DNA from: Klebsiella electrica
GTDB lineage: Bacteria > Pseudomonadota > Gammaproteobacteria > Enterobacterales > Enterobacteriaceae
Assembly (NCBI RefSeq): GCF_006711645.1
Contig: NZ_CP041247.1
Coordinates: forward strand, 1,674,001 to 1,738,000
Reading direction: 5' to 3'
DNA length: 64,000 nt
Shown here: positions 20,433-37,818 of the stretch, in pieces
Numbering within the stretch: position 1 is the first letter of the stretch
How the letters are laid out: every line of letters starts with the position of its first letter
Position numbers and translations under genes: made by a program
The notes under the pieces: model-generated
Seen by the model: only the letters and a program-made list of their open reading frames with translations
Databases searched by the model: none
What the model was told of the DNA's origin: nothing

Positions 20433-20461
20433 CCACGTCGCTGACATCAGGGGTCACAGAT

Positions 20462-21235
20462 ATGAAAACAGGTATTGCCGCTTTACTGGCTTGTATGGCC
20501 CTGAGCGCGCCGCTGGCCGCTCAGCAGTTCGACACCATCAGCTTCGGCGTTGACGGCGGCTATCCGCCCTTTGACGTGCTGGCGCCCAGCGGCGAAATAA
20601 CCGGCTTTGACATTGATATTGCCAACGCGCTCTGTACGCAGCTGAAAGCGAAGTGCGTTTTCGTCAAGCAACCGTTTGAGAGCATGATCGCCGCGCTGAA
20701 CGCACATAAATTTGATGCAATTATTGCTTCGCTGAATATTACCGACGAGCGGAAGAAGGAAGTGGATTTCACCGACCGCTACTATCGCAGCGCGGCGCAA
20801 CTGGTGGCGCGCAAGGGGAGCCCGCTGCTGCCGGATGCCGCCAGCCTCAAGGGCAAGACCGTCGGCGTACAAACCGGCTCGACGCATGAAGCTTACGCCA
20901 GAAGCCACTGGGCCGGTCACGGCGTGAAGATCGTGGGCTACGCCAACCAGGACAACGTCTATCTGGATCTGCTCTCCGGGCGTATCGATGCCTCCTTACA
21001 GGACAATATCCAGGCGGCGACCAGCTTTGTCGACACGCCGCGCGGACAAAAATTCGCCTTCGCCGGTCCGGTCATCAGCGACGGCAGCATTTCGTCTGAC
21101 GTCGGCATTGCGGTCAATAAAGACAATCCGGCATTGCGTGACGCTCTCAACGGAGCCATCAAGCAAATCCGCGCCGACGGCACCTACGCCGCGATTGAGA
21201 AAAAGTACTTTAGCTTCGATATCTACGGCAATTAA
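20462..21235 (+). CDS. Periplasmic amino-acid-binding protein (ArgT/HisJ-like)
   Basis: This 257-residue type II periplasmic binding protein (SBP_bac_3) has a signal peptide (residues 1-20, cleavage probably after PLAAQ or nearby). The mature part starts with FGVDGGYPPFDV and has the family signature GEITGFDIDIANALC near residue 45. The hinge region KGKTVGVQTGSTHEAYA is typical of basic-amino-acid binding proteins. It would deliver a cationic amino acid or arginine derivative to the two permeases encoded downstream. Gap to the DDAH-like gene is 29 bases. Confidence 0.9.
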   Translation: MKTGIAALLACMALSAPLAAQQFDTISFGVDGGYPPFDVLAPSGEITGFDIDIANALCTQLKAKCVFVKQPFESMIAALNAHKFDAIIASLNITDERKKEVDFTDRYYRSAAQLVARKGSPLLPDAASLKGKTVGVQTGSTHEAYARSHWAGHGVKIVGYANQDNVYLDLLSGRIDASLQDNIQAATSFVDTPRGQKFAFAGPVISDGSISSDVGIAVNKDNPALRDALNGAIKQIRADGTYAAIEKKYFSFDIYGN

Positions 21236-21237
21236 GC

Positions 21238-21279
21238 CGTAAAGGGGAGGGCGTGGTCGGCGACCGGCGCCCCTTTACG
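21238..21279 (+). repeat. Intercistronic stem-loop between binding-protein and permease genes
   Basis: A perfect 10-bp inverted repeat (CGTAAAGGGG at 21238-21247, CCCCTTTACG at 21270-21279) encloses a nested GGTCG/CGACC hairpin. No T run follows. Such stems after a binding-protein gene commonly stabilise its mRNA and keep permease expression lower. The permease gene starts 20 bases later. Confidence 0.7.
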
Positions 21280-21299
21280 CCACGGGTGGAAGACAGAAT

Positions 21300-21992
21300 A
21301 TGGTTGCAGATTATTTACCGCTACTGTTACGCGGCGCGGGGGTGTCGCTGTGCGTGATGCTGGTCTCGCTGCTGGTGGCGCTGCTGCTGGGGCTGGTGAA
21401 CGCGCTGATTAAGCTGTTCGGACCGCGCTGGCTGCGGTGGTTTTCCACCGGTTATACCACGCTGGTGCGCGGCATCCCGGAGCTGGTGATTATGCTGCTG
21501 CTGTTTTTTGGTGGCGAGATGCTGGTCAACGCCCTGCTGTCGCTGGCTGGAGTTGGGCCGGTGCGTTTTAATACCTTTATTTCCGGCGTGCTGGCGATTG
21601 GCTTCGTGTTTGGCGCCTATTACACCGAGACGTTTCGCGGCGCGTTTCTCACCGTCGATCGCGGACAAACCGAAGCGGCTGAAGCCTACGGCATGCGGCC
21701 GTGGCTGGTCTTCCGGCGCATCATGCTGCCGCAGATGCTGAGCTTTGCCATTCCGGGCATCAATAATAACTGGCTGGGACTGATGAAAGCGTCGGCGCTG
21801 GTCTCCATTCTCGGTTTAGAAGATATGGTGTGGCTGGCGGAACAGGCCGGGCGCGCCACGCAAAAACCCTTTTTGTTCTACTTCCTAGTCTCGCTGATTT
21901 ACATGGTTATCACCGCCTTGTCCAGCTGGCTGTTTAGCCGTCTGGCGAAGCGCTACGCGCTGCGTTCGTCAACGGCGGGGGCGGCGCAATGA
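21300..21992 (+). CDS. Amino-acid ABC transporter permease (HisQ-like)
   Basis: This 230-residue inner-membrane permease has about five hydrophobic helices and the ABC permease loop EAAEAYGMRPWLVFRRIMLPQ near residue 118, where the ATPase would dock. It resembles HisQ/ArtQ. It overlaps the next permease gene by four bases (ATGA), so the two probably form the heterodimeric channel. The start at 21300 follows GGAAG. No ATPase gene is found in the cluster. Confidence 0.9.
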   Translation: MVADYLPLLLRGAGVSLCVMLVSLLVALLLGLVNALIKLFGPRWLRWFSTGYTTLVRGIPELVIMLLLFFGGEMLVNALLSLAGVGPVRFNTFISGVLAIGFVFGAYYTETFRGAFLTVDRGQTEAAEAYGMRPWLVFRRIMLPQMLSFAIPGINNNWLGLMKASALVSILGLEDMVWLAEQAGRATQKPFLFYFLVSLIYMVITALSSWLFSRLAKRYALRSSTAGAAQ

Positions 21993-22714
21993 ATCTGCAG
22001 ACCTTTATCGAGGCGGTACCGGGCTATTTGTGGAGCGATGGCAACGGTTCGACGAGCGGGCTGGCGATGACGGCGGAGCTGTTTTTGCTCTCCCTGGCGC
22101 CCGGAATGGTGCTGGCGGTGCTGCTGGCGATAGGCCAGGTCTACGGTCCGCGCCTGCTGGCCTGGCCCGTCCGCGGCTTTACCTGGTTTTTCCGCAGCAC
22201 GCCGCTTTATCTGCAGCTGATGCTTATCTATTACGGGCTGTCTCAGTTCGATATTGTCCAGCTGGGCTGGCAAAACGATCGGCCGTTCTGGCTGCTGTTC
22301 CGCGACGCCACCTTCTGTGCCACCCTGGCGCTGGTGCTGAACACCGCGGCCTACGTCGCGGAATTGCTGGCGGGGATGATGGCGACGTTTCCGCGCCAGG
22401 AGTGGGTGGCCGGGGAAGCCTATGGTATGACTAAGTGGCAGATTATTCGCCGACTGGTGCTGCCCGCTACGCTGCGGCGGGGGATTCCGGCGCTGAACAA
22501 TGAGATGGTGTTTTTGCTCCACGCCACTTCGCTGGCCAGTACCGTGACGTTGCTGGATATCACCGGCGTGGCGCGCGCTTTCTATGCCATCACCTACTCG
22601 CCGTTTATCCCGTTCCTGATGGCCGCCGCGCTCTATTTAGTGTGCACCTTTTTGCTGATTTTCGTCTTTTCGCGGGCGGAACGACGTTGGCTGGCGTTTA
22701 TCAAGCGCCCCTGA
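21989..22714 (+). CDS. Amino-acid ABC transporter permease (HisM-like)
   Basis: This 241-residue permease is the partner of the preceding HisQ-like protein. It has the coupling loop AGEAYGMTKWQIIRRLVLPATLRR near residue 148 and ends with a hydrophobic helix followed by a basic tail (ERRWLAFIKRP). It resembles HisM/ArtM. Its stop codon is immediately adjacent to the end of the convergent Lrp-family gene, with no intergenic base, so transcription from the two sides must be terminated inside the opposing genes or collide. Confidence 0.9.
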   Translation: MNLQTFIEAVPGYLWSDGNGSTSGLAMTAELFLLSLAPGMVLAVLLAIGQVYGPRLLAWPVRGFTWFFRSTPLYLQLMLIYYGLSQFDIVQLGWQNDRPFWLLFRDATFCATLALVLNTAAYVAELLAGMMATFPRQEWVAGEAYGMTKWQIIRRLVLPATLRRGIPALNNEMVFLLHATSLASTVTLLDITGVARAFYAITYSPFIPFLMAAALYLVCTFLLIFVFSRAERRWLAFIKRP

Positions 22715-23170
22715 TCAGGAGCGTTTGATGGACTGTAGTTCCGTCAGGGTGACGATTTTATCGATGCGAAATTTTTTGCTGGTCAGCCAGCCGTCGGCCA
22801 GCTGGCAGTAGTGCGCCATGCTGCGACAGCCGATACGCACCAGAAAGTCAAAGCTGCCGCTGACCAGCCAGCAGTCGAGCACCTCCGGCGTCTGGCGCAT
22901 CTCCTGCTCAAAGACCGGCTGTGAGCGGCCATGGTCGGCCAGCGCAATTTGCGCCTGCACCACGAAAGCATGTTCCGGTTCCGGGAGTTCAATCACCGCG
23001 CTGTAGCCGCGGATAATGCCGTCGCGCTCAAGGCCACGTACGCGTTCCAGGCAGGGACGGGCGGTGAGGTTTACCTGCTCCGAGAGCTTTTGATAAGAAA
23101 TGCGGCCATCCCGGCGCAGGATTTCAAGGATCTTATGATCGATACGGTCGAGCCGGGCTTTCTTTTCCAC
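22715..23170 (-). CDS. Lrp/AsnC-family transcriptional regulator
   Basis: This roughly 151-residue feast/famine regulator has an N-terminal helix-turn-helix (RLDRIDHKILEILRRDGR then YQKLSEQVNLTARPCLERV) and a C-terminal ligand-binding RAM domain (about residues 63-145). I place the start at GTG 23170; the frame is open to a TTG at 23185, which would overlap the divergent deacylase ATG. The regulator lies between the permease genes and the deacylase gene and probably controls both in response to an amino acid. Closest named relatives cannot be assigned without a search. Confidence 0.85.
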   Translation of the reverse strand: MEKKARLDRIDHKILEILRRDGRISYQKLSEQVNLTARPCLERVRGLERDGIIRGYSAVIELPEPEHAFVVQAQIALADHGRSQPVFEQEMRQTPEVLDCWLVSGSFDFLVRIGCRSMAHYCQLADGWLTSKKFRIDKIVTLTELQSIKRS

Positions 23171-23184
23171 AGATAGGACGTCCA

Positions 23185-24303
23185 ATGAAAATTAAACACT
23201 ATACCTTACCCGAACATGCGCTGAGTGGGCAGCGGCAATTAACCCATTTTCACTTTGGCGAACCCGGCCGCGGAGAGAAAATCTATCTGCAGGCGGGGCT
23301 GCACGCCGATGAAATCCCGGGCATGCTGGTACTGCATTATCTTAAAAGATTACTTAACCAGGCGGAACGGCGCGCCGAGCTGCGCGGTGAGATTATCCTC
23401 GTGCCGGTCGCTAACCCGCCGGGGCTGGCGCAGGTCGTGCTCAACGGCGGGATCGGACGATTTGATCTCGCCAGCGGCCGCAACTTCAACCGCGATTTTC
23501 CCGACCTCGCCCACCTTGCGCAGCGCTATCTCGGCGCCGATGCCCCGCAGACCCGCGAAGCGTACCTGCGGCAGGTCCGCGCGGCGATGCGCGAGGCGCT
23601 GGCCGCCGAACCGCAGCGCAGTGAAGTTCAGGCGTTACGCCACCATCTGCTGAGCCTGGCCTGTGATGCCGATGTGGTGCTGGATCTGCACTGTGACGAT
23701 CGGGCCATTTTGCATCTGTACGCCGATCCGGCCTGGCAGGCGGAGGCCGGGGTGATGGCGGCCTTTTTAGGTATTGAAACGGTACTGCTGTCGCAAGAGA
23801 GCGGCGGTTACTCGTTTGATGAAGCCTGCGGGCTGCCCTGGCATCACCTGGCGGCGCGCGCTCCGCAATGGCAGCACGGCCAGCCTGGCTGTATGGCGGT
23901 GACCGTGGAGCTGCGCGGTCAGCAGGATGTGAATCACGCGCTGGCCCGCGAGGACGCTGAACGTCTGTACCGTTATCTGCAATATCGCGGCGTGCTGGCG
24001 GGCGAAGTCCAGCCTGTCCCGCAGCAGGAGACGCTGATGCTGCCGTTTGCGGCGGGAGAGATAGTGACCGCGCCGGCGAGCGGGATCTTCGTAGCGTTGA
24101 AACAGCCCGGCGAGTGGGTCAGCGCCGATGAGGTGGTGGCTGAGATTATCGATCCGCTCACCGATATGATTCAATCGGTCCGCCCGCAGACCGGAGGGTT
24201 GATCTACGCCAGCCGTCGGGCGCCTTTTGTCACCTTTGGCGCCGAGGTGATGAAAATCGTCGGCAGGCAGAGTTATGCCGGAGGCGGCGGGCTGGCGATG
24301 TGA
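23185..24303 (+). CDS. Succinylglutamate desuccinylase/aspartoacylase-family zinc hydrolase
   Basis: This 372-residue M14-like amidohydrolase has the zinc-site motif GLHADEIPGMLVL near residue 39 (H-x-x-E), VPVANPPGLAQV near 74, the arginine/asparagine region GRNFNRDFPD near 97, the third zinc ligand in VVLDLHCDD near 170 and a catalytic Glu in VTVELRGQ near 238. The C-terminal beta domain (about 285-372) resembles a lipoyl-like cap. It would deacylate an N-acyl amino acid. It is divergent from the Lrp-type gene, with almost no space between the two, and may process the substrate of the neighbouring transporter. Confidence 0.82.
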   Translation: MKIKHYTLPEHALSGQRQLTHFHFGEPGRGEKIYLQAGLHADEIPGMLVLHYLKRLLNQAERRAELRGEIILVPVANPPGLAQVVLNGGIGRFDLASGRNFNRDFPDLAHLAQRYLGADAPQTREAYLRQVRAAMREALAAEPQRSEVQALRHHLLSLACDADVVLDLHCDDRAILHLYADPAWQAEAGVMAAFLGIETVLLSQESGGYSFDEACGLPWHHLAARAPQWQHGQPGCMAVTVELRGQQDVNHALAREDAERLYRYLQYRGVLAGEVQPVPQQETLMLPFAAGEIVTAPASGIFVALKQPGEWVSADEVVAEIIDPLTDMIQSVRPQTGGLIYASRRAPFVTFGAEVMKIVGRQSYAGGGGLAM

Positions 24304-24311
24304 CCCGTTGG

Positions 24312-25220
24312 TTAAACCGGCGGCATTGATGTCGAACGGGCCAGAAAGTCGCTCACCGTCTTCATGCACAGTTCGCGCTCTTCCACGTGCGGCATATGGC
24401 TTGAGGCTTCGAAAATGACCCACCGGGCATCAGGAATGTGGTCCATAAAAGGCTGTACCACTGCCGGCGTGGCTTCATCGTAACGCCCGGAAATCAGCAG
24501 CACCGGGACCTCAATTTGCGGCAGACGGTCGATAATGGTCCACGCTTTCATGCTGCCGATAACGTGGAATTCGGTGGGGCCGTTCATCGCGTGATAGACC
24601 GTCGGGTCCGCGTCCATCGCATCGAAGGTGCGCCGTACTTCCGGCGGCCAGGGATCAAGCCGACAGACGTGGCGTTGATAAAAGACCTGGCTTGCCGCCT
24701 TATATTCCGCGCTGTCCAGCGTCCCGGCGGCCTCGTGCTGCAACAGCGTTTGCTGGATATCGGCGGGCAACTGCGCCCGCAGCTCTGCCGCCCCCTGGAG
24801 CCACAGCGCCATTGAGGCCGGGGAGTTGGCGATAACCAGCGCTTTTAAGCCTTTTGGCTGCGTCACCGCGTGCTCCGCGCCCAGCATCCCTCCCCACGAT
24901 TGACCGAGCAGGGCATAATTATCGGCAATATTGAGGTGTCGCAGCAGGTTATCCAGCTCGTCGAGAAACAGCGCCGGCTGCCAGAAGTCGGCAGGCTGCT
25001 GCGGGAGATGGGTTGAGCGCCCGTTGCCTAACTGATCGTAGTGGATCACCGCTCGTCCGCTCAGCGCGATGTCGCGGAACGCATCGACATAATCGTGCGT
25101 ACACCCCGGCCCGCCGTGGGCCACGACCAGCGGCGTCAGTCCGCTATCGATATTGCCGCAAATACGAAACCAGGTTTGATACTGCCGAAACGGGGCATAG
25201 CCTTCGCGAATGGTATACAT
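24312..25220 (-). CDS. Proline iminopeptidase-family alpha/beta hydrolase (copy 1)
   Basis: This 302-residue S33 hydrolase has the oxyanion-hole motif [13 protein letters not shown] near residue 33, the acid/substrate segment [12 protein letters not shown] near 60, the nucleophile elbow [15 protein letters not shown] near 105 (Ser in GQSWGG), and the catalytic His in [10 protein letters not shown] near 275. Such enzymes remove N-terminal proline or act on related small amides. It lies just downstream of the LuxR solo gene on the same strand but has its own 81-bp leader with a dyad element and a 10-bp hairpin. The second hydrolase (26259) is a paralogue. Confidence 0.88.
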
Positions 25221-25227
25221 GAGTGAT

Positions 25228-25264
25228 CTTTACCCTGTTAAATGGACCGGCTTTCAGGGTAAAG
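25228..25264 (-). promoter_or_regulatory. Leader stem-loop of the first iminopeptidase gene
   Basis: A perfect 10-bp inverted repeat (CTTTACCCTG at 25228-25237 and CAGGGTAAAG at 25255-25264, 17-base spacer) lies 8 to 44 bases before the start codon. In the mRNA the 3' arm contains CAGGG, the nearest purine-rich ribosome-binding candidate, so the stem could mask it. It may alternatively be a protein-binding palindrome. Confidence 0.55.
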
Positions 25265-25277
25265 GGTCATCGGCGAA

Positions 25278-25306
25278 GCTGAACACTAGTAAAAATGCTA
25301 GTTATT
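25278..25306 (-). promoter_or_regulatory. lux-box-like dyad upstream of iminopeptidase copy 1
   Basis: Read toward the hydrolase gene, the element is ACTAGCATTTTTACTAGT followed by GTTCAGC. The ends ACTAG and CTAGT are a perfect inverted pair in an 18-bp dyad, close to the 18-20 bp of known lux boxes. It covers the last bases of the LuxR solo gene and lies about 58 bases before the hydrolase start. A matching element precedes the other hydrolase gene. Confidence 0.6.
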
Positions 25307-26057
25307 GGCTGTCGAGCAGGCGGTAATGCAGGGCGCGAACCACCGCCTGTACGCGGTTGCTGGCGCCCAGTTTTTTCGCCGCGGTATTCAGGTGCAACGT
25401 CACCGTCGCCACTGAGCGATGGAGCTTGCGGGCGATCTCTTTGGCGGTGAGTCCTTCGGCGGACCAGGCCAGACATTCGCGCTCGCGGTTGCTTAATTTC
25501 ACGTGGCGGCAGGTCAGCATGGTGCTGTCGAACAGCGGAAAAGCCGTCTCCTGAAACTGATGGGCAAGCAGCATCAGCTGCGCCAGAGTGGCGCTGATTT
25601 CCGGCTCCTGACGCTGATCGGTGTGAATACCGGTCAGGGTGACGAAACCGCCGTTAGGCAGATGCAGGGGAACCGTGGCGCCGCAGGGCATATTGTGTTC
25701 ACGCATATAGTGGGTGACGGCGGTCGTATGCGGGTCCAGTCTGCCGCGCAGCATGTTGCTGTCCGGGCGCTGATAGGACCAGATAAAGGGCGCGCAGCTC
25801 TCCAGCGCGCAATGCTGCACCGGATCAAGCTGGTAATAGCCGCGTTCGCACCATAGCTGACGCATATCCTCCGGCACATTGCACGTTTTGAGCAGCGAGG
25901 GCGTAATCAGCTCCCCTTCCAGAGAGCGCGGGACCGGGGTGTAGTCGTAAATAACCGCGTCAAACCCCAGCTTTCGCGTTTGCTGAAATAGCCCGCCGAA
26001 TGCCTCATCCAGGCTGCCAGCCTGCGCGCCGCCGGGGCGTTCAAACTCCAGTCGCAT
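25302..26057 (-). CDS. LuxR solo of the OryR/PsoR/PipR (plant-responsive) group
   Basis: This 251-residue regulator has an N-terminal autoinducer-binding domain (about 15-165) and a C-terminal LuxR/FixJ helix-turn-helix (about 187-245; LSNRERECLAWSAEGLTAKE). Counting back from the conserved DPV (Asp78), Met65 and Trp69 stand where acyl-homoserine-lactone receptors have Trp57 and Tyr61; Trp93 and Gly126 match Trp85 and Gly113. The Met/Trp pair defines the plant-associated LuxR solos, which respond to plant compounds and control an adjacent iminopeptidase gene. No luxI gene is nearby. A strong GAGGGGGG ribosome site (about 26063-26070) supports the start. Two iminopeptidase genes and a peptide transporter flank it. 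Confidence 0.9.
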   Translation of the reverse strand: MRLEFERPGGAQAGSLDEAFGGLFQQTRKLGFDAVIYDYTPVPRSLEGELITPSLLKTCNVPEDMRQLWCERGYYQLDPVQHCALESCAPFIWSYQRPDSNMLRGRLDPHTTAVTHYMREHNMPCGATVPLHLPNGGFVTLTGIHTDQRQEPEISATLAQLMLLAHQFQETAFPLFDSTMLTCRHVKLSNRERECLAWSAEGLTAKEIARKLHRSVATVTLHLNTAAKKLGASNRVQAVVRALHYRLLDSQ

Positions 26058-26163
26058 ATAACCCCCCTCACATAAAAACGAGACCTGCTACGGGCATGAT
26101 TTGTGCAAATCCGTCAATCGCCCGCTGTGAGGTATGCAATTCCGATGCCGTACCGGCGCGGCG

Positions 26164-26193
26164 TAAAACTAGTATTTTTGCTAACTGTTCAGC
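26164..26193 (+). promoter_or_regulatory. lux-box-like dyad upstream of iminopeptidase copy 2
   Basis: Read toward the second hydrolase gene the element is ACTAGTATTTTTGCTAACT followed by GTTCAGC. It aligns with the element before copy 1 with one extra base and a few substitutions, in the same orientation and at a similar distance (about 65 bases) from the start codon. A GCGTTAACGC palindrome (26211-26220) lies between it and the gene. Confidence 0.6.
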
Positions 26194-26258
26194 TTCCGGC
26201 GATGCCGTTAGCGTTAACGCAACGCCAGTAGCCAGCCCTGTACGACGAGGAATAGACC

Positions 26259-27158
26259 ATGTGGAGTGAAATAACGGCCGATCGATGCCATAACATTGCG
26301 GTAGACGGATACAACGTCGTGGCCTGGGAATTTGGCGACGGCGATGAGTGCGTACTCTGCCTCAACGGCGGGCCGGGGCTACCCTGTGACTATCTGCGCG
26401 AGGCCCACTCCTGCCTGAAACAGCACGGCTATCGGGTGATCGCCTTCGACCAACTGGGGACCGGAAAATCGGACCGGCCAGATGACACCAGCCTTTGGAC
26501 CATGGCGCGCTACGTGCGGGAGGTGGAAACCGTTCGTCAGGCGCTGGGGCTCGGCAAGGTGCATCTGCTTGGTCACTCGTGGGGCGGATGGCTGGCCATT
26601 GAAGTGGCATTGCACCATCCTGGCGCAATTCGCTCGCTGATTCTGGAAAATACCGTCGCCGATATGCCGCATCTGGTGCAGGAGCTTAATCGTCTGCGCG
26701 GTGCGCTGGGGCCAGAAACCGTCGCCATGATGCAGCGCTATGAAGCGCTGGGCTGGCTGGATCATCCGGCCTATCAGGCGGCGATTACCCTACTGAATTA
26801 TCGCCATGTGTGCCGTCTTGACGTCTGGCCCGAACCGGTTAAACGCTCGCTGGAGGACTGGAATATGGCGCCGTATATCACCATGCAGGGGCCGAACGAA
26901 TTCCTCTATACCGGTAATTTAAAAGCCTGGGATCGCAGCGCCGAACTGAGCTTAATCCGGGCGCCGTGCCTGATCACCAGCGGCCAGCATGATGAACTTA
27001 CTCCCGCCTGCGCCCTGAAAATGAAGCAGGGGCTGGCGAATGCCGAAATCGCGATTTTTGCCAACAGCAGCCATATGCCGTTTTATGAAGAGCCGCAGGC
27101 TTACTACCCGGTGCTGCTCGACTTTCTGGCACGCCAGCGCGATACAGGAGGCCGTTAA
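26259..27158 (+). CDS. Proline iminopeptidase-family alpha/beta hydrolase (copy 2)
   Basis: This 299-residue S33 hydrolase has NGGPGLPCDYL at the oxyanion hole (near residue 37), IAFDQLGTGKSDRP near 65, the nucleophile elbow LLGHSWGGWLAIE near 107 (Ser in GHSWGG), the acid in TSGQHDELTP near 245 and the catalytic His in ANSSHMPFYEEP near 273. GAGGAA precedes the ATG. It overlaps the first permease gene by one base, so hydrolase and importer form one operon. This is the arrangement described for pipA next to PipR in Pseudomonas, where the peptidase gene is the target of the LuxR solo. Confidence 0.9.
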   Translation: MWSEITADRCHNIAVDGYNVVAWEFGDGDECVLCLNGGPGLPCDYLREAHSCLKQHGYRVIAFDQLGTGKSDRPDDTSLWTMARYVREVETVRQALGLGKVHLLGHSWGGWLAIEVALHHPGAIRSLILENTVADMPHLVQELNRLRGALGPETVAMMQRYEALGWLDHPAYQAAITLLNYRHVCRLDVWPEPVKRSLEDWNMAPYITMQGPNEFLYTGNLKAWDRSAELSLIRAPCLITSGQHDELTPACALKMKQGLANAEIAIFANSSHMPFYEEPQAYYPVLLDFLARQRDTGGR

Positions 27159-28096
27159 TGCATCGCTACCGCTTTCTGCTGTTTCGTCCGCTACAACTGA
27201 TCCCGGTTCTGTTAGGCATCAGCCTGATTACCTTCATGATGGTGCGCGCGATCCCCGGCGATCCGGCGCGCATTCTGCTGGGGACGCGGAGCACCCCGGC
27301 GGCGTTGGCGCGCATCCGCGCGCAGTTTGGCCTCGACGAACCGCTGTGGGTGCAGTACGGCTACTTCCTGCGCAATCTGTTGCAGGGGGAGCTGGGAAAA
27401 TCCATCGTCTATCGGGTCGACACCCTCAAGCTGATTGCTTCCCGACTTGAGCCAACGCTGTGGCTGGTGCTGGGCAGCGTGCTGTTGGCTATCGTTCTGA
27501 CGGTGCCGCTGGCCGCGATTGCCGCCCGCCAGCGTGGACGTCTCGCCGATCGGCTGATCCGCCTCTTTACCACCGCCGGGCTGGGTTTTCCGGCGTTCTG
27601 GCTCGGCATTATGCTGATTCTGCTGTTCAGCATCGCGCTGGGCTGGTTTCCGGTCTCCGGCTATGGCAGTGATTTTTTTGACCAGCTGCACCATATGGCG
27701 CTGCCGTGTCTGACCGTGGCGCTGGCTCTCTCAGCGGTATTGATTCGTAACCTGCGCGCCAGCCTGCTGATGGAGATGAGTAGCGACTATGTGGTGGCGG
27801 CGCGGGCGCGCGGACAGCGGGAAAGACGCATTTTCTGGCGGCACGTGCTACCCAATTCGCTGGTCCCGACCATCAATCTGCTGGCGGTGAATATCGGCTG
27901 GCTCATCGGCAGTACGGTGGTTATCGAAAGCGTGTTTGCCATCCCCGGCCTCGGCCAACTGCTGATCAAGGCGATTTTTAGCCGCGACTACATGGTGGTC
28001 CAGGGGGTGGTGATGGTCTTTGCCCTCGCCACCGTGGCGGTCAGCCTGCTGGCGGATATGTTGACCGTGGCTCTCGACCCGAGGATAAAGCTATGA
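27158..28096 (+). CDS. Peptide ABC transporter permease (DppB-like)
   Basis: This 312-residue inner-membrane permease has six predicted helices. The N-terminal segment RPLQLIPVLLGISLITFMM is typical of DppB/OppB proteins, as are the MVRAIPGDPAR motif near residue 27 and the coupling loop VAARARGQRERRIFWRHVLPN near 214. It overlaps the DppC-like gene by four bases (ATGA). Together they would form the channel of an oligopeptide, dipeptide or nickel-type importer; no metal-binding feature points to nickel, and the hydrolase neighbours favour small peptides or amides. Confidence 0.92.
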   Translation: MHRYRFLLFRPLQLIPVLLGISLITFMMVRAIPGDPARILLGTRSTPAALARIRAQFGLDEPLWVQYGYFLRNLLQGELGKSIVYRVDTLKLIASRLEPTLWLVLGSVLLAIVLTVPLAAIAARQRGRLADRLIRLFTTAGLGFPAFWLGIMLILLFSIALGWFPVSGYGSDFFDQLHHMALPCLTVALALSAVLIRNLRASLLMEMSSDYVVAARARGQRERRIFWRHVLPNSLVPTINLLAVNIGWLIGSTVVIESVFAIPGLGQLLIKAIFSRDYMVVQGVVMVFALATVAVSLLADMLTVALDPRIKL

Positions 28097-28938
28097 AAGC
28101 GATCGCGACTTTTTCTCGTCTGCGTCAGCGGGTCATCCCGCGCCAGCAGGCGTTATATTTCGGGCTGGCGATTGTCGGTTTATGGTTCCTCATCGCCTGT
28201 CTGGCGCCGTGGATAGCGCCGTTCGATCCGATAGCCCAGGATGCCTCCTCCAGCCTGCTGCCGCCGGGCGGCGCGCATCCGTTCGGCACCGATAACTTTG
28301 GCCGCGATATTTTTTCCCGCGTGCTGTGGGGGGCGAGGGTGGATCTGCAGATCTGCCTGCTGGGGGTGCTGTTTCCTTTTATGCTCGGCACCACGCTGGG
28401 GGCGCTCTCTGGCTATGCCGGCGGCGCCGTTGATGCGCTGATCATGCGCATCATTGATATCGTGCTGGCCTTTCCGTTTCTGGTACTGATGCTGGCGATC
28501 ATCGCCGTCCTCGGGCCGGGACTGGGCAGCTTTTATATCGCTATGGCGCTGGTGGGCTGGGTTTCCTACGCCCGGCTGATACGTGCTCAGGTACTGACCT
28601 TAAAGCAGCGCGATTTTGTCCTGGCGGCCCGCAGCCTCGGCTATGGGCACCCGCGGATTTTATTTCGTCATCTGCTGCCGAATGCGCTGAGCGGGGCGAT
28701 TGTTTTTTCGATGTCCGACTGCGTGCTGGTGTTGCTTAACGGGGCTTCGGTGAGCTATCTGGGGCTTGGCGTGCAACCGCCTACCGCCGAGTGGGGCGTC
28801 ATGATTGCGGAGGGGCAGAGTTTTATCACCACCGCATGGTGGATAACCACCTTTCCCGGACTGGCCATCGTGCTGCTGGCGATGGGGTTTAGCCTGCTGG
28901 CCGACGGGCTGGGCGATAAATCAGGAGCGCGCGGATGA
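28093..28938 (+). CDS. Peptide ABC transporter permease (DppC-like)
   Basis: This 281-residue permease begins with a basic cytoplasmic tail, a first helix near residue 25, then the family motif PFGTDNFGRDIFSRVLWGARV near 65. The coupling loop VLAARSLGYGHPRILFRHLLPN near 175 would dock the ATPases. It ends in a helix followed by the hydrophilic [11 protein letters not shown]. It overlaps both neighbours by four bases, a pattern of tight translational coupling across the transporter genes. Confidence 0.92.
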   Translation: MKAIATFSRLRQRVIPRQQALYFGLAIVGLWFLIACLAPWIAPFDPIAQDASSSLLPPGGAHPFGTDNFGRDIFSRVLWGARVDLQICLLGVLFPFMLGTTLGALSGYAGGAVDALIMRIIDIVLAFPFLVLMLAIIAVLGPGLGSFYIAMALVGWVSYARLIRAQVLTLKQRDFVLAARSLGYGHPRILFRHLLPNALSGAIVFSMSDCVLVLLNGASVSYLGLGVQPPTAEWGVMIAEGQSFITTAWWITTFPGLAIVLLAMGFSLLADGLGDKSGARG

Positions 28939-29915
28939 CTCTGCTGAAGGTAAACAATCTGACGGTCATGCGCGGCGCAGATCTGGCGCTGGTGGACAAC
29001 GTTTCGTTGAGTCTCGACGCCGGAGAGATGCTGGGGCTGGTCGGCGAGAGCGGTTCGGGTAAAACCGTGACCTGTCGGGCGCTGATGCGTCTGCTGCCGG
29101 GGGCCGGGTTGCGGATTACCGGTGGCGAGGTTGTGCTGAACGGGCGCGATATTCTGACCTTGAGCGACGACCACATGTCGGCGGTGCGCGGGCGGGAGGT
29201 CGGCATGATTTTTCAGAACCCAACCAGCCATCTTAATCCGGTGATGACCATCGGCGAACAGATTGCCGAAAGCCGCCGCCTCCATTTCGGCGCCAGCCGC
29301 CGTCAGGCGCGGGAGGATGCGCTGGCATTGCTGCGGCAGGTGGGGATCCCCGACCCGCAAAACCGGCTCAATAACTATCCGCATGAATTCTCCGGCGGCA
29401 TGCGCCAGCGGGCGATGATTGCCGTCGCTCTCGCGCCGGAGCCCGCGCTGCTGATTGCCGATGAGCCCACGACGGCGTTGGACGTGACCGTGCAGATGCA
29501 GATTCTGCGCCTGCTCAGCGACCTGCGCGCCGAGCTGGGGCTGGCGGTCATTATGATCACCCACGATCTCGGCGTAGTAGCGCAAACCTGCGACCGCATT
29601 GCGGTGATGTACGCTGGCCGGTTGTGTGAGGTCGGCGGTAAGCGCGAAGTGCTGGCCGGGCCGCTGCATCCCTATACCCGCGGGCTTATCGACTGCCAGC
29701 CGGTCAGCGAAGGCGGGCGGGGGAGGCTGACGACTATCGACGGCCAGCCGCCGGTCGCCGACCATTTTCCGTCAGGCTGCCGCTTTCACCCACGCTGCCA
29801 CCGCGCCGATGAGGCTTGCCTGCACCAGCCGTCGCTGGCTTACGGGCAGGATAGCCACAGTCATGCGGCGGCTTGTCATCACATGTTGCCGACGCTCGTC
29901 CGGCGGGAGGAATAA
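28935..29915 (+). CDS. Peptide ABC transporter ATPase (DppD-like)
   Basis: This 326-residue ATPase has Walker [15 protein letters not shown] near residue 37, the Q-loop in [18 protein letters not shown], the signature [19 protein letters not shown] near 154, Walker [13 protein letters not shown] and the switch His in ITHDLG. The C-terminal extension carries [15 protein letters not shown] and a later Cys, the cysteine pattern of oligopeptide-transport ATPases that can hold an Fe-S cluster. It ends in TAATG, sharing one base with the next ATPase gene. Confidence 0.93.
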
Positions 29916-30949
29916 TGGTGCGTACTCATTGGCCGTTGCTGGAGGCCGATAATCTTTCCGTTACCTTTCCGCTTTCCGGCGGATGCGGGTTGTCGAAACG
30001 GGCGGTGCATGCCGTCAGTCAGGTTTCGTTGCAAATTTATCCCGGCGAGACGCTCGGTCTGGTCGGCGAATCCGGCAGCGGTAAAAGCACGCTGGGTCGG
30101 GTGCTGTTACAGCTTGAGCGGGTGACCGCCGGAGAGGTGCGCTTCGATGGTCAGCGAATTACGCATGGTTTAACCAGCGATATCGCCCGTCTGCGCCAGC
30201 AAAGCGCGATGATTTTTCAGGACCCCTTTGGCTCACTGAACCCACGTCAGACCATCGGGGAAAGCATCGCCGAGGTGCTGCGGGTTCATCAAAAGGTGCC
30301 GGGCGGCGCGGTCGCGCAGCGAGTCGCGGAGTTGCTCACTCAAGTCGGCCTGCGTCCGCAGCAGGCCAGCGCCAAACCGGCGCAGCTTAGCGGCGGCCAG
30401 TGCCAGCGCGCCGGTATAGCGCGAGCGCTGGCGATGGAACCGCGGCTGATCGTCGCCGATGAGTGCGTCGCGGCGCTGGATGTCTCTATTCAGGGGCAGA
30501 TCGTCAATTTACTGATGGATCTGCAGGAGAAGATGGGGCTGGCGATTCTGTTTATCGCGCATGACCTGGCGATTGTGCGTCGGCTCTGCGATCGCGTCGC
30601 GGTGATGTATCTCGGGCGTATCGTGGAAGAAGGGCCGGTGGAAGCGGTTTTCAGCCGACCGCTGCATCCGTATACCGCCGCGCTGGTGGCGGCAATCCCG
30701 GAGATCGACCCCGATAAGCCGTTGCCGAAGAGTGGGTTGGGGGGCGAGCCGCCCAGTCCCGTCGCTGTTCCACAAGGCTGTGCATTTCATCCGCGCTGCC
30801 CTTATGCGCAGGTGCCGTGTCGCACCGGCGCACCACCACCAACCCGGCAGATTGCCGATCGCGCATATGCCTGCGTACTCAACCACACGGGTAATGAGAC
30901 CGTTTTTCCTTTTACAGGGGGATCTTTTGATGAAGCACAGACATGTTAA
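29915..30949 (+). CDS. Peptide ABC transporter ATPase (DppF-like)
   Basis: This 344-residue second ATPase starts at ATG 29915 inside TAATG, with GGGAGG just upstream. The frame is open for 14 more codons upstream, but that start would lie within dppD-like coding sequence. It has Walker [15 protein letters not shown] near residue 51, the signature [19 protein letters not shown] near 154, Walker [13 protein letters not shown] (Cys replaces the usual Pro after Asp-Glu) and IAHDLAIV. The C-terminus again has [15 protein letters not shown]. It overlaps the binding-protein gene by 20 bases. Confidence 0.92.
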
Positions 30950-32444
30950 GTTACTGGCGGCGAGCGTTTTTCTGGCGCTGAGCGTGGTCAGCGAAATGGC
31001 GCAGGCGGCGGGCGTATTGACCATCGGTCGCCGTGAGGACAGCACCACGTTTGACCCGATAAAATCGGCGCAGAATGCCGATAACTGGGTCTTTTCCAAC
31101 GTCTTCGACCCGCTGGTGCGGGTGGATAAGACGGGGACGAAGCTGGAGCCGGGCGTGGCGGAGAGCTGGACTATCTCCGCGGATGGCAAGGTCTATACCT
31201 TTAAAATTCGCGAGACTAAATTCTCGGACGGGACGCCGTTGACCGCCAGCGATGCGGCTTTTAGCCTGCTGCGTATCCGCGACGATGCGGGATCGCTGTG
31301 GCGCGATTCCTACAGCATTATTGCGCAGGCGCAAGCGACGGACCCGCGAACCCTGGTGGTGACGCTGAAATCGCCTTCAGCCCCTTTCTTATCGCAACTG
31401 GCGTTGCCGAATGCGTCGGTGATTTCGCAGCAGGCGATGAAAACGGAAGGCGAGGAGGCTTTTGCCGAAAAACCGGTGGGATCCGGCGCGTTTAGCGTCA
31501 AGGAGTGGCTGCGCGGCGAAAAAATCGTGCTGGTCAAGAATCCCAACTTCTGGCAGGCGAAAAACGTCAGTCTTGATGGCGTGGAGTGGTTAACCATTCC
31601 GGATGATAATACCCGCATGCTGAAGGTGCAGGCGGGCGAACTGGATGCCGCGTTGACGGTGCCTTTCTCGCGGATTGCATCCTTACAAAAGGACGCCAGC
31701 CTGAAGGTGGAGCTTGACCCGTCAACCCGCGAAGATCATCTGCTGATTAACCATTCTCATGGCGCGCTGGGCAAAGTGGAAGTGCGCCAGGCGCTGGATT
31801 TTGCCATTGATAAAGACGCTATCGTCAAGACCGTGACCTTTGGCTATGGTCAGGTGGCGAACTCCTACATTCCCGCCGGGGCGCTTTATCACTACGCGGA
31901 CAATCTCCGTCGGCCATACGATCCGCAAAAGGCCAAAGCGATGCTGAAAGCGGCGGGGGCCGCCGACCTGAAGCTGAACTATGTGGTGAACGCCGGGGAT
32001 GAAGTGGATGAGCAAATCGCTATTTTACTCCAGCAGCAGCTGGCGAAAGCTGGGGTGACGGTCAATTTACAAAAAGTGGACCCGAGTCAGAGCTGGGATA
32101 TGCTGGTGGCCGGAGATTACGATATTTCGGTGATGTACTGGACTAACGATATCCTCGACCCCGATCAGAAAACCACCTTTGTGCTGGGGCATGACGCCAA
32201 CATGAACTATATGACCCGCTACCATAACGAGCAGGTCAAAGCGCTGGTGGCCGCCGCACGTGTGGAGATGGACAGTAAAAAGCGGGAGCAGATGTATATC
32301 GAGCTGCAGAAAATGGCGAAGGCAGACGTGAACTGGATCGATCTGTATTACAGCCCGTACCGCAACGTCAGTCGTAAAAATATTAGCGGTTTCTATCAGA
32401 ATCCGCTGGGTCGCTTCTTCCTCGAAGATACCGTGAAAAACTGA
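30930..32444 (+). CDS. Periplasmic peptide-binding protein (SBP_bac_5 family)
   Basis: This 504-residue substrate-binding protein has a signal peptide (about residues 1-26: [19 protein letters not shown], ending near MAQAAG). The mature part has TTFDPIKSAQNADNW and the family segment AESWTISADGKVYTFKIRE near 80. I start it at ATG 30930 by the signal peptide; the frame is open further upstream inside the ATPase gene. It is the last gene of the importer operon and sets its specificity, which cannot be read from sequence. In Pseudomonas PipR loci the equivalent protein is needed for the response to plant-derived ethanolamine-type signals. Confidence 0.9.
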   Translation: MKHRHVKLLAASVFLALSVVSEMAQAAGVLTIGRREDSTTFDPIKSAQNADNWVFSNVFDPLVRVDKTGTKLEPGVAESWTISADGKVYTFKIRETKFSDGTPLTASDAAFSLLRIRDDAGSLWRDSYSIIAQAQATDPRTLVVTLKSPSAPFLSQLALPNASVISQQAMKTEGEEAFAEKPVGSGAFSVKEWLRGEKIVLVKNPNFWQAKNVSLDGVEWLTIPDDNTRMLKVQAGELDAALTVPFSRIASLQKDASLKVELDPSTREDHLLINHSHGALGKVEVRQALDFAIDKDAIVKTVTFGYGQVANSYIPAGALYHYADNLRRPYDPQKAKAMLKAAGAADLKLNYVVNAGDEVDEQIAILLQQQLAKAGVTVNLQKVDPSQSWDMLVAGDYDISVMYWTNDILDPDQKTTFVLGHDANMNYMTRYHNEQVKALVAAARVEMDSKKREQMYIELQKMAKADVNWIDLYYSPYRNVSRKNISGFYQNPLGRFFLEDTVKN

Positions 32445-32452
32445 GCCTTCTC

Positions 32453-32487
32453 GCGTCGGTCGGCCCCGGTCGCCGACGCTTTTTTTA
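32453..32487 (+). terminator. Rho-independent terminator after the peptide-transporter operon
   Basis: GCGTCGG (32453-32459) pairs with CCGACGC (32473-32479) and is followed directly by seven T. It lies eight bases after the stop of the binding-protein gene and should end the hydrolase-importer transcript. Confidence 0.88.
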
Positions 32488-34276: not shown

Positions 34277-34894
34277 TTATCCGCGCTCTTTTAACACGCT
34301 AATGAACTGAAAGAAGTCATGATGATTATTCAGTCCATATTTTTCCATGATCTGGTTCTTATGATAAATAACGGTCTTCGGGCTAATCTGGTGCAGTGCG
34401 GAAATTTTACCAATATCAAAACCATTCATCAGACCATGGGCAACGACGACCTGCGAAGGCGACAGGCTTTTGTGCGGGCAGTTGGCGCATATTGATGCTG
34501 AATCGACCGCCCGTTTTGATTCCGGCTGTTCATTCTTCTTTAGCGCCCTGGCAATAATTTCACGCATGCTGTCAATATTGACCGCTTTGACCGGAACGAA
34601 GGTAACGTCTTTCAGGCAATTGACGATCCGCGTCTTTTCCGGCAGCTCATCATAACTATGCAAAATGATGACCGAACTGTTTTGTTTACGGTTTTTAATA
34701 CTGGTATTACAGAGATGAATCTCACCCGGGAGAATCTCAGCGATGATAATGTCCGCAGCGGACAATTCGCTTGAGTGACCGCTAAACCTGATGGTCAGGT
34801 CGTCGCGGGTCCGGGTGAGATCGTTGACAATTGCCATTAGCGACGCCTTGAGGAAGGTGTTTCGGCTGATAATCGCGATGCTTATTTTTCTCAT
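34277..34894 (-). CDS. LuxR-type transcriptional regulator with CxxC linker
   Basis: This about 205-residue protein has a receiver-like N-terminal region (MRKISIAIISRN at the start) that lacks an obvious phospho-acceptor Asp pattern, and a C-terminal helix-turn-helix (LSPSQVVVAHGLMNGFDIGK and KTVIYHKNQIMEKYGL) like RcsB/FixJ regulators. A CANCPH segment lies between the domains. I start it at ATG 34894, preceded by GGAAAG; an upstream in-frame ATG exists at 34921. The target is unknown. It resembles the many unlinked LuxR-type regulators of Klebsiella that control surface structures, but that is inference. Confidence 0.75.
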   Translation of the reverse strand: MRKISIAIISRNTFLKASLMAIVNDLTRTRDDLTIRFSGHSSELSAADIIIAEILPGEIHLCNTSIKNRKQNSSVIILHSYDELPEKTRIVNCLKDVTFVPVKAVNIDSMREIIARALKKNEQPESKRAVDSASICANCPHKSLSPSQVVVAHGLMNGFDIGKISALHQISPKTVIYHKNQIMEKYGLNNHHDFFQFISVLKERG

Positions 34895-35046
34895 GGCGTG
34901 ACTTTCCGGCGGCATCAACATAATACCATGCTGCGAGTAACCTTTCTGGCGTTTACGGCAATTGCCGTGAATCGGGAATATCGTATTTGATGAACGGAAA
35001 ATGGCCTTTCATCAACACGACGGGAGGGGCAGAAGCTCTGCCATGA

Positions 35047-35184
35047 TTATTTCCTTCGCATTTTTCGGTCGGCGAAGGGGATTTTCTGTTTTCTTCTGTC
35101 TTTTATGTAAGAAATAAAGCTATAAACGGAGATGCCGAAGAAAAACAGGCATAGCAATAAAGCCAGCCACGTTTGCAAAGCCAT
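35047..35184 (-). CDS. Small membrane protein, 45 residues
   Basis: A 45-codon frame starts at ATG 35184 after a good ribosome site (AAGGA, nine bases upstream). The product has one hydrophobic helix (about residues 4-27, containing WLALLLCLFFFGISVYSF) followed by a very basic tail (KDRRKQK, then RKMRRK). This is the layout of short single-helix inner-membrane proteins with a cytoplasmic basic tail. No family name can be given. It lies between the LuxR-type regulator and the two-component genes. Confidence 0.7.
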   Translation of the reverse strand: MALQTWLALLLCLFFFGISVYSFISYIKDRRKQKIPFADRKMRRK

Positions 35185-35605
35185 AATGGATCATCCTTAA
35201 CTGAGTTTTGTGCTGTGATAAATATGCATCAGCGCGAACGCCAATATTATTATTCTGTTATTCCGCGTGAAGCTGCTGCTGTCGTCGCGGCGTCTGCCGC
35301 GTAAAATTTTCGCGCGACATCGCCGCCTGGAACCCAACCCTGGCAGAGTGAAACCCGGCCTGTCCGCAAGATGGCTAGTACGAAAGGGCGGGCGCGGTTC
35401 CCCTCTCGTCGCATGGCTAATTTTGGGCGCTACCGTTGCGGTATAAGGTCAATGTAAGAAAATTCTTAATGTACTGTCAGTCTCATTTCTCTCATTTCTC
35501 TCAAAAAATGAGAAAAATTAACAACAATAGCAAAGTAAATAACGTATGGATGATCGAGCTGGCGGAGAATGCCTCTCGCCGGTCGTATGACGGCGGTGAG
35601 GACCC
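35185..35605. other. Intergenic stretch upstream of the small membrane protein gene
   Basis: This 421-bp gap should hold the promoter of the 45-residue protein. A 103-codon plus-strand frame crosses its right part into the regulator gene but has no ribosome site and is not convincing. I see no other structure. Confidence 0.4.
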
Positions 35606-36301
35606 TCAGGGAATAAACGCCAGACCTTTGCCAAAAATGGCCCGGATGGGCAAGGTCATACCGTGTAGCCTCGCTTTGTTGCGCAGCCGGCTGATCACCA
35701 CGTCAATGCGGTGCAGTTCCGCCTCATCTTCATCGGGGAAAAGATAGGCGTGCAGATCGACCTTGCGACAGACTTCGCTGGGGTTACGCATTAAGCGCGC
35801 TATCAGCCGGTGCTCTTGCTGGGTCAGCGGCAGCGCGATGCCGGACGGCGCCAACAGGCTTTCCGGCTGCAGTACCCAGGATGAAGAGGCGGCCTTCTCG
35901 TCGACGGGGGCCGCGACAGGGGGGGCGGGGGTTTGCTGCACAAGCCGGGCGCCCAGCGAATCAATGGTCTCCGCCAGAACGGAAAAATTCACCGGCTTGA
36001 TGAGATAGAAGTCTGCGCCAAGATTGAACGCCTGCAGCTTATCCTGCTCATGCCCTCTGGCCGTCATGACGATCAGCCCGTACTCGCCAATCTCATGCAG
36101 ATACTCCAGAACGCTGAAGCCGTCTTCGCCGGGCAAGCCAATATCAACCAGCACAATGTCTACCGGATCGCGATGCAGCTGCCGCCAGAACGCTTCCGCG
36201 CTGTGTACGCCCCATGCGCTGAAGCCGCGAAAGCGCAGGAAGGCCAGCAGTTCATCAAGGAGATCGGCGCTATCTTCGATGATGGCGACGCGTAATGTCA
36301 T
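35606..36301 (-). CDS. Two-component response regulator (winged-helix type)
   Basis: This 231-residue regulator has a receiver domain (acidic pocket IIEDSAD, phospho-acceptor Asp53 in IVLVDIGLPGEDGF, Lys in YLIKPVNF near 104), a proline/alanine-rich linker (about 124-140) and a C-terminal winged helix (about 150-231; LPLTQQEHRLIARL, then IDVVISRLRNKA). It overlaps the sensor kinase gene by four bases, so they form one operon. The sensor gene upstream carries a frameshift, so the regulator may lack its normal input. Confidence 0.88.
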   Translation of the reverse strand: MTLRVAIIEDSADLLDELLAFLRFRGFSAWGVHSAEAFWRQLHRDPVDIVLVDIGLPGEDGFSVLEYLHEIGEYGLIVMTARGHEQDKLQAFNLGADFYLIKPVNFSVLAETIDSLGARLVQQTPAPPVAAPVDEKAASSSWVLQPESLLAPSGIALPLTQQEHRLIARLMRNPSEVCRKVDLHAYLFPDEDEAELHRIDVVISRLRNKARLHGMTLPIRAIFGKGLAFIP

Positions 36302-37818
36302 GATTTACCCTTTTGCTGTGGTGGGGCATCCTGGGGAAGCGTGAGCGTAAATTCGCATCCCGTCGGACCGTTTACTGCCAGCCAAAGCTCACCGCCGTGA
36401 GCCTGGATGATTTGTCGGGCGACATACAGCCCAAGACCGGTGCCAACCGGCGTCGCGGTACAGACGACGCCGCGCCGGTAACGCTCAAAAATCTGGTCAA
36501 CATGATCAAGGGCAATCCCGGGCCCGTGGTCACGAATGCCGATTTCGCAGCGCTCCGCCTGCGGGCGAATGGCGATCGCAATCTCGCCGGACGGCGTGTA
36601 CTTCACCGCATTGTCCAGGAGGTTGGCCAGCGCAATGCATAGCAGTGCGCTGTCGGCAAACAGCGGCGGCGAACGGGTCGTCGAGTCGACCCTGTGCCCG
36701 TCCAGCGTGATAGTCAGATAATGATTGGCCGAGAGTTCAACGACGGTGGCCGCCATGCGGATAACCGAGAGCAGATCGGCGTTTTGTTTATCCACATGCA
36801 GCGCACTGGAGGAGAGCCGGGCATCGGCCAGACAATTATCGGTTAACTGAACCAGGCGTGTGGTGGCGCGTTGCATGCGCTCCAGGCGCGGCCGTTGCGC
36901 CGGTTCCGGGGAGCACAGACGCAGGTTCTCCAGCGCGGCCTGGATAACCGAGAGCGGCGTTCGGAATTCATGTGCCACCATGCCCATAAACTGACGTTGA
37001 TGAAAGCTTGCTTCGCGCTCGATCCGCAGTTCGCGCGTCAGCTGTTGTTTTTGCACCAGCCTGCGGTTTTCGGCCCGTACGCGCAGGACTGCAATAATCA
37101 GCACGGCGATGATATGTACAATCAGCGCGTACTGCCAGATGGAGTAAATCGCGTTGTGAAAGGGAATGATGCCATGGATCGATAACAGTGCCAGCGCGGT
37201 GGCAACAACATACGCCGGCGGGAGCAGCCCCAACAGGAATGTATTCCAGTCAATGGCTTTTCGTCGCCAGAGCGCCCATGAGGTCACCAGCAGCACGGGG
37301 GCGGCGACAAAGAAGATCCCCGCCTCAATTTGCATAGCCAGTCCGTAAAAGTCCAGTGGAATGCTGGCGAGGAGGAGCATATTCAAACCGATAGCCGCGA
37401 CGAGTATCCGCTGTAAGCGCGGCATATTGTTCTTAAGATCAAACACCTCGCTATGCAGCCACAGCGCTGTAGCGTAACTGAGCAGCGACAGGTAGCTGAT
37501 CATCGCGTCCTGGATCCGGAGAACGGCGTTGCCGAAAAACCACTCCGGGTAGCCGTGCAGAGCGGCCACCAGCGGATAGTTGAGGGAAAACAGGCAGATC
37601 CCCCACAGTAAACGGCGGCGCAATAAAACGGCGAGCCACAGAGCGACGCCGCTGGCGATCACCGCCAGGCCAAAGTAAAAGCTCCAGAATGCGGTATCCC
37701 GGGTCGCGGACTGGAGAAACTCCTGCGGCGAAGAGAGTGTGCTCAGCAGCAGCAGGGTGCTGCTACTCTGAATGCGGAACACCACGTCGTAGCCTGTCGC
37801 CGCCGGGGGCGGCGGCAA
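36298..37818 (-). CDS. 7TMR-DISM sensor histidine kinase, membrane and kinase part (downstream of a frameshift)
   Basis: This frame encodes the seven-helix membrane region (about first 200 residues), a short coiled coil, the dimerisation domain with His in MVAHEFRTPLSVIQAAL, and an ATPase domain (N box LANLLDNAVKYT, G1 RDHGPGIAL, G2 GTGLGLYVARQ). There is no proper start here: the first in-frame codon usable is a TTG at 37818, and the frame continues upstream as WIKKEFGD-type residues that complete the periplasmic domain in the frame of the next feature. The gene therefore spans 36298-38279 with a -1 shift near 37885-37905. Confidence 0.8.
   Translation of the reverse strand: MPPPPAATGYDVVFRIQSSSTLLLLSTLSSPQEFLQSATRDTAFWSFYFGLAVIASGVALWLAVLLRRRLLWGICLFSLNYPLVAALHGYPEWFFGNAVLRIQDAMISYLSLLSYATALWLHSEVFDLKNNMPRLQRILVAAIGLNMLLLASIPLDFYGLAMQIEAGIFFVAAPVLLVTSWALWRRKAIDWNTFLLGLLPPAYVVATALALLSIHGIIPFHNAIYSIWQYALIVHIIAVLIIAVLRVRAENRRLVQKQQLTRELRIEREASFHQRQFMGMVAHEFRTPLSVIQAALENLRLCSPEPAQRPRLERMQRATTRLVQLTDNCLADARLSSSALHVDKQNADLLSVIRMAATVVELSANHYLTITLDGHRVDSTTRSPPLFADSALLCIALANLLDNAVKYTPSGEIAIAIRPQAERCEIGIRDHGPGIALDHVDQIFERYRRGVVCTATPVGTGLGLYVARQIIQAHGGELWLAVNGPTGCEFTLTLPQDAPPQQKGKS

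Follow-up and report, generated by a model that had tools for sequence, protein, structure and literature searches.

What does a LuxR-family regulator do when it stands between two peptidase genes and next to a peptide-type ATP-binding cassette (ABC) importer in a Klebsiella genome? This question is raised by positions 24312-32444 of a 64,000-nucleotide stretch of Klebsiella electrica DNA (assembly GCF_006711645.1, contig NZ_CP041247.1, positions 1,674,001-1,738,000 of the forward strand), hereafter called the window, for which the original prediction, made from the letters of the DNA, had proposed a PipR/OryR-type plant-signal circuit. Our analysis supports a circuit of this type, with all of the known parts and in the gene order of the Pip system of Pseudomonas GM79, and we consider it probable (about 0.78) that the locus is a PipR-type circuit that imports, senses and degrades its inducer; the interpretation given in the original prediction holds in part. 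The comparisons with published systems made below draw on parts of the cited papers.

Domain searches found every part that the prediction had named, and its observation is thus confirmed. The regulator gene (25302-26057, minus strand) encodes a protein with an autoinducer-binding domain (PF03472, E 5e-26) and a GerE helix-turn-helix (HTH) domain (PF00196, E 5e-16). It is flanked by two hydrolase genes, pip1 (24312-25220, minus strand) and pip2 (26259-27158, plus strand), whose products score 257 and 269 bits, respectively, against the TIGR01250 model 'proline iminopeptidase-family hydrolase' (cut-off, 168 bits). Downstream of pip2 and on the same strand, the importer is encoded by genes for an OppB/DppB-type permease (27158-28096; PF00528 and PF19300), an OppC/DppC-type permease (28093-28938; PF00528 and PF12911), an OppD/DppD-type ATPase (28935-29915; PF00005 and PF08352), an OppF/DppF-type ATPase (29915-30949, with the ATG at 29915 read from the sequence; PF00005 and PF08352) and a family 5 periplasmic binding protein (30930-32444; PF00496). 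The start of the last gene was likewise read as the ATG at 30930, not as the first GTG of the open reading frame at 30732. The binding protein is an orthologue of AapF (PDB 7kz8/7kz9), with which it shares 343 of 480 residues (71%).

The locus was compared with its relatives, namely the best 80 of 494 stretches obtained in one scan of species genomes, to which all counts out of 80 refer. The gene corresponding to pip1 lies 3' of luxR in all 80 relatives, the binding protein is present at an identity of at least 60% in 76, and the first permease is present in 77. The original prediction treated the two hydrolases, instead of one, as a peculiarity of this locus, but the two-hydrolase layout is common: both genes are found in 61 of the 80 relatives, and GM79 also has AapA in addition to PipA (PMC4981722). 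The loci without pip2 come from Kosakonia, Trabulsiella, Rahnella, Prodigiosinella, Lonsdalea, five Pseudomonas, one record named Martelella and a truncated metagenome-assembled genome, although one of these 19 loci (L034) ends 530 bp upstream of luxR, which is too near to judge. In a tree of 33 rows covering 18 of the 80 loci and the window, pip1 and pip2 fall into two separate clades (100/100). Because of this separation and the orthology with GM79, in which aapA occupies the position of pip2, the second hydrolase is assigned to the AapA (alanine aminopeptidase) type and pip1 to PipA; AapA of GM79 favours alanine (PMC4981722).

The regulator itself carries Met65, Trp69, Asp78, Trp93 and Gly126, exactly as had been read from the sequence, and Met65 and Trp69 thus stand where SdiA and the N-acyl-homoserine lactone (AHL) receptors have Trp57 and Tyr61 (TraR numbering). 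The accompanying statement that this Met/Trp pair defines OryR, PsoR and PipR is wrong for the Pseudomonas members in the sample: TraR-57 is Met in 42 and Trp in 38 of the 80 relatives, and published PipR keeps Trp (W104) at the equivalent position (PMC7301841). Invariant in all 80 are Trp at TraR-61 and Gln at TraR-73. A LuxR tree of 48 rows (one duplicate omitted) was built from the window, 38 of the 80 relatives, six LuxR-type proteins from LuxI loci, two proteins above the SdiA cut-off and one SdiA-like protein, with OryR, XccR, NesR and GM79 PipR lying outside the rows. In this tree, 39 rows of plant-associated-type (PAB) solos, including the window, are split at 100/100 from the nine AHL/SdiA-type rows; the branch of the SdiA-like row is very long, and the program warned of long branches meeting. 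Among these rows, the regulator thus does not cluster with AHL receptors, the outcome that would have refuted the original prediction.

The same data bear on the idea that the protein eavesdrops on AHLs as SdiA does. Its best NCBIfam match is indeed SdiA, with 53 bits against a cut-off of 350, and the genome's own sdiA gene is interrupted; the replacement of Tyr by Trp at TraR-61 and of Val by Gln at TraR-73, the tree split, and the adjacent pip genes with their boxes (described below) make such a role very improbable. The interrupted sdiA gene (G000:C1:1910691-1912430, L151:92-1831) contains an IS4/5-family transposase (DUF4096 and DDE pieces); it scores 310 bits against the SdiA model over model positions 1-180 of 240, with an HTH remnant beyond the transposase. 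Since it is the only other PF03472 gene of the genome, no intact protein of this kind other than the LuxR of the pip locus is left in the genome. A profile search for LuxI-family proteins (PF00765) gave no match in this genome or in 14 control genomes, the same search having matched 14 of 79 genomes of the order, six with E below 1e-20. The window protein therefore has both LuxR domains without a cognate luxI, a substituted pocket, adjacent pip genes, a lux-box-like dyad before pip and a position among the PAB solos, and it shares with the GM79 Pip system an AapF-type binding protein and importer within the same locus.

Two 18-bp dyads, here called pip boxes, precede the hydrolase genes. Box 1, ACTAGCATTTTTACTAGT (25285-25302, minus strand, 0 mismatches), is centred ~74 bp 5' of the pip1 ATG and shares one base with the luxR stop codon; box 2, ACTAGTATTTTTGCTAAC (26168-26185, plus strand, 0 mismatches), is centred ~82 bp 5' of the pip2 ATG and ~119 bp 5' of the luxR ATG. 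By eye, the two are identical at 14 of 18 positions. A relaxed dyad (CTAKN8MYAR) lies no more than 130 bp 5' of pip1 in all 80 relatives and 5' of pip2 in all 61 that have this gene, compared with means of 1.8 and 2.2 and maxima of 8 and 7, respectively, in 200 dinucleotide shuffles, counts that are to be read with the relatives not being independent and the pattern having been picked after these loci had been viewed. The stricter form CTAKN8MTAR is retained before 77 of 80 pip1 and 55 of 61 pip2 genes. In the pip2-less loci that have oppB, the strict box lies within 240 bp before oppB in nine of 16 (Kosakonia, 4 of 4; Rahnella, 3 of 3; two Pseudomonas), and its retention in Kosakonia and Rahnella points to control of the importer itself. 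A conserved block upstream in the pip1 leader may correspond to a -10 region, with a spacing that would fit a box centred near -42.

The box also appears to be confined to the locus. With up to two mismatches, the enteric form of the box has two sites in this genome, both in the pip locus; however, a reversed-pattern control gave seven matches at that level, and equal or larger numbers than the real pattern in most genomes, and we therefore count only sites with at most one mismatch as evidence of restriction. At this stringency, the eight Klebsiella-group carriers of the LuxR gene yield 16 sites, every one within the locus, and 12 genomes of the same genus without the gene yield none. Among 13 enteric genomes, four of which, judged by their coordinates, repeat those of the eight-carrier search, 26 sites were found, one of which (G373:C20) is outside the locus and one of which (in G381) is on a second contig. 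The latter genome is that of Trabulsiella guamensis (L029, G381:C128), which has two PipR-type homologues (P0018 and P0022) and one box site on each of two contigs. The looser Pseudomonas/Rhizobium pattern, searched in eight genomes, was too degenerate for interpretation, the reversed control giving many more matches than the pattern.

Confinement of a stringent box to one module in the eight Klebsiella-group carriers is also what a catabolic operon would show, and the parts could accordingly serve peptide or amine nutrient use, the inducer being a common peptide or amine of gut, soil or decaying matter with no specific plant signalling. The occurrence of the module as a present/absent unit in Klebsiella, a genus that includes many animal-associated species, fits such a role, whereas plant-associated genera supply the majority of the 80 loci. 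PipR likewise responds to peptone and Ser-His-Ser, but GM79 pipA responds to leaf macerate (PMC4981722), and OryR, PipR and XccR have been reported to respond to plant extract. On this evidence, we regard a pure nutrient module as unlikely, though deserving some weight.

A characterized counterpart of the locus is the GM79 system, whose order, transporter-aapA-pipR-pipA, corresponds to it gene for gene and in which a repeat centred at -71.5 precedes pipA and, as in the window, the peptidases form a pair (PMC4981722). One difference is that the aapA site of GM79 overlaps the coding start of pipR, whereas box 2 of the window is intergenic. Because box 2 is also close to box 1 in sequence, control of pip2 and the importer in the window may be stronger than that of aapA in GM79. 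OryR, XccR, NesR and PsoR resemble the window regulator in being PAB LuxR solos beside pip, a likeness taken from a review table, not from their sequences. The characterized enteric relative, and the nearest one to have been tested, is PsrR of Kosakonia sp. KO348 (PMC7301841). The Kosakonia loci are 80-82% identical to the window and, unlike it, lack pip2 (4 of 4).

The GM79 ligand, N-(2-hydroxyethyl)-2-(2-hydroxyethylamino)acetamide (HEHEAA), is a candidate inducer, in view of the full synteny and of the identity of the binding protein to AapF, the structure of which has been solved (7kz8 and 7kz9; background on AapF and HEHEAA in PMC7301841 and PMC10134790). The four pocket positions that differ among these regulators are divided: with numbering mapped between the proteins, Lys57 of the window agrees with K96 of PipR and is Glu in PsrR and in all four Kosakonia, but PsrR shares Val61, Met65 and Arg66, which are replaced by Thr, Trp and His in PipR. 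As PsrR is moreover unresponsive to HEHEAA, we consider this compound an improbable ligand of the Klebsiella regulator.

In GM79, the transporter mutant is blind to the signal, peptidase mutants are hyper-responsive and mutation of the box abolishes activation (PMC4981722). By analogy, the ABC importer of the window would take up a small compound, peptide-like or of the ethanolamine type and possibly plant-derived, which the LuxR solo would bind in the cytoplasm; the regulator, presumably as a dimer, would then bind the two pip boxes and activate pip1 and the pip2-importer unit. The peptidases would degrade the inducer or a derivative of it and thereby shut the circuit down, and the induced importer would sharpen the rise of the response. 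We favour this PipR-type import-sense-degrade circuit because of the protein families, the gene order and mutant data of GM79, the identity to AapF, the tree split, the conservation of the boxes, the two sites of the enteric box in this genome, both at the locus, and the box kept before oppB in pip2-less Kosakonia and Rahnella.

Several observations weigh against this circuit. In GM79, aapA responds only weakly to PipR, and seven of the 16 pip2-less loci with oppB are without a strict box within 240 bp. In addition, Kosakonia PsrR was unresponsive to HEHEAA, ethanolamine and rice root macerate in the part of the report considered here (PMC7301841). The 146-bp reporter fragment used for KO348 starts, judging from its primer, inside psrR and therefore should include the box at ~-74. 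In that strain, a lux box had been proposed at -19 to -39 (PMC7301841). In four Kosakonia species (L019-L022), that stretch falls in the conserved leader, with a clearer dyad at ~-74 before pip, which seems the likelier regulator site. A more specific version of the circuit is offered tentatively, and at less than even odds: the enteric branch may form a closed single-locus processor, with two near-identical boxes and, where pip2 has been lost, a box retained before the importer, in which the regulator controls both entry and destruction of its inducer, giving a pulse or threshold response to a ligand other than HEHEAA, in a cassette gained or lost as a whole among Klebsiella-group species.

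An inverted repeat, CTTTACCCTG-N17-CAGGGTAAAG, is present in the pip1 leader (25228-25264), and its 3' arm takes in the ribosome-binding region; a genuine hairpin there might silence transcripts that read through from luxR. When pairing of the ribosome-binding region with the stretch upstream was assessed in 81 pip1 leaders, the mean z was -1.29, with 20 leaders at p<=0.05 and a z of -3.80 for the window, but 62 pip2 leaders used as a control gave a similar result (mean z -1.40, 26 at p<=0.05). In the enteric subset, the pairing did look specific to pip1 (pip1, mean z -3.26 and 14 of 15 at p<=0.05; pip2, mean z -0.07 and 0 of 8). These enteric leaders are close relatives, and a consensus fold of the 15 keeps four stem pairs, none of which is changed on both sides; three of the four Kosakonia leaders have a mismatch within the stem. 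A hairpin before pip1 is therefore not used as evidence, given the likeness of pip1 and pip2 over the whole set, the lack of covariation and the Kosakonia mismatches.

Within the genus, the LuxR gene was found at an identity of at least 92% in eight of 20 genomes, including that of K. electrica, and at this identity it had no match among 20 further members of the family and order. An even sample of 274 genomes across the class contained it at E <=1e-40 in the K. electrica genome alone. The binding protein was found in none of the 12 non-carriers of the genus at E <=1e-60, in a search without a positive control. A neighbouring dicarboxylate-symporter gene is present at an identity of at least 92% in eight of these 12 genomes, adjoined in four by the deacylase gene (window 23185-24303) and in four by sequence ending at approximately window 17717; the module is therefore present or absent as a single unit at one site. 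Bearing on horizontal gain versus repeated loss, its identity to four other carriers is 86.8-87.7%, and that of the flanks is 82.3-86.6% (left flank in two of the four), whereas two non-carriers match the flanks at 92.5-92.8%.

On its left, the module is bordered at 19671-24303 by genes for a dimethylargininase-like enzyme, a basic amino-acid-type ABC importer, an Lrp-type regulator and the AstE/AspA-type deacylase, the last of which is present in four relatives without the pip module and does not adjoin the module in K. indica and K. spallanzanii. An intrinsic-terminator-like stem followed by a T-run (32459-32477, plus strand, found by pattern match) likely marks the end of the pip2-importer unit; what speaks for it is solely its place past the last gene, because the region has no excess of such stems (seven seen versus 7.8 in shuffles). 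Further to the right, three consecutive regulators are encoded at 34277-37818, namely a protein whose one domain match is a GerE-type HTH, a response regulator of the OmpR type and a 7TMR-DISM histidine kinase.

The original prediction held that a role of this kind is seldom described for the genus, but the same layout was published in 2024 as koyR of K. michiganensis LDS17, a LuxR solo with M57/W61 that clusters with PAB solos and whose gene, as in the window, stands between two pip genes, both with lux-box-like repeats in their promoters, together with an ABC cluster (PMC11064500). The window LuxR and its counterpart in K. michiganensis DSM 25444, the strain compared instead of LDS17, are 94% identical; the window protein is therefore an orthologue, at this distance probably from another species of the group. 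In the part of that paper drawn on here, the authors leave the function of koyR to future work (PMC11064500), and among the literature titles listed, outside subscription papers, none pointed to a functional test of KoyR or of Klebsiella/Raoultella LuxR solos. Thus, both the kind of circuit and its occurrence in Klebsiella are already published, and the finding is real but largely ordinary; what is added here is the presence of box-type dyads before pip1 and pip2 across relatives, the restriction of the box to the locus and the behaviour of the module as one present/absent unit.

With its well-defined box and apparently closed regulon, this locus lends itself readily to a search for the ligand of the enteric branch, PsrR having given no response to the inducers tried with it. 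If the circuit works as we infer, some Klebsiella-group species would possess an intact circuit for a plant or peptide signal, and their near relatives would lack it.

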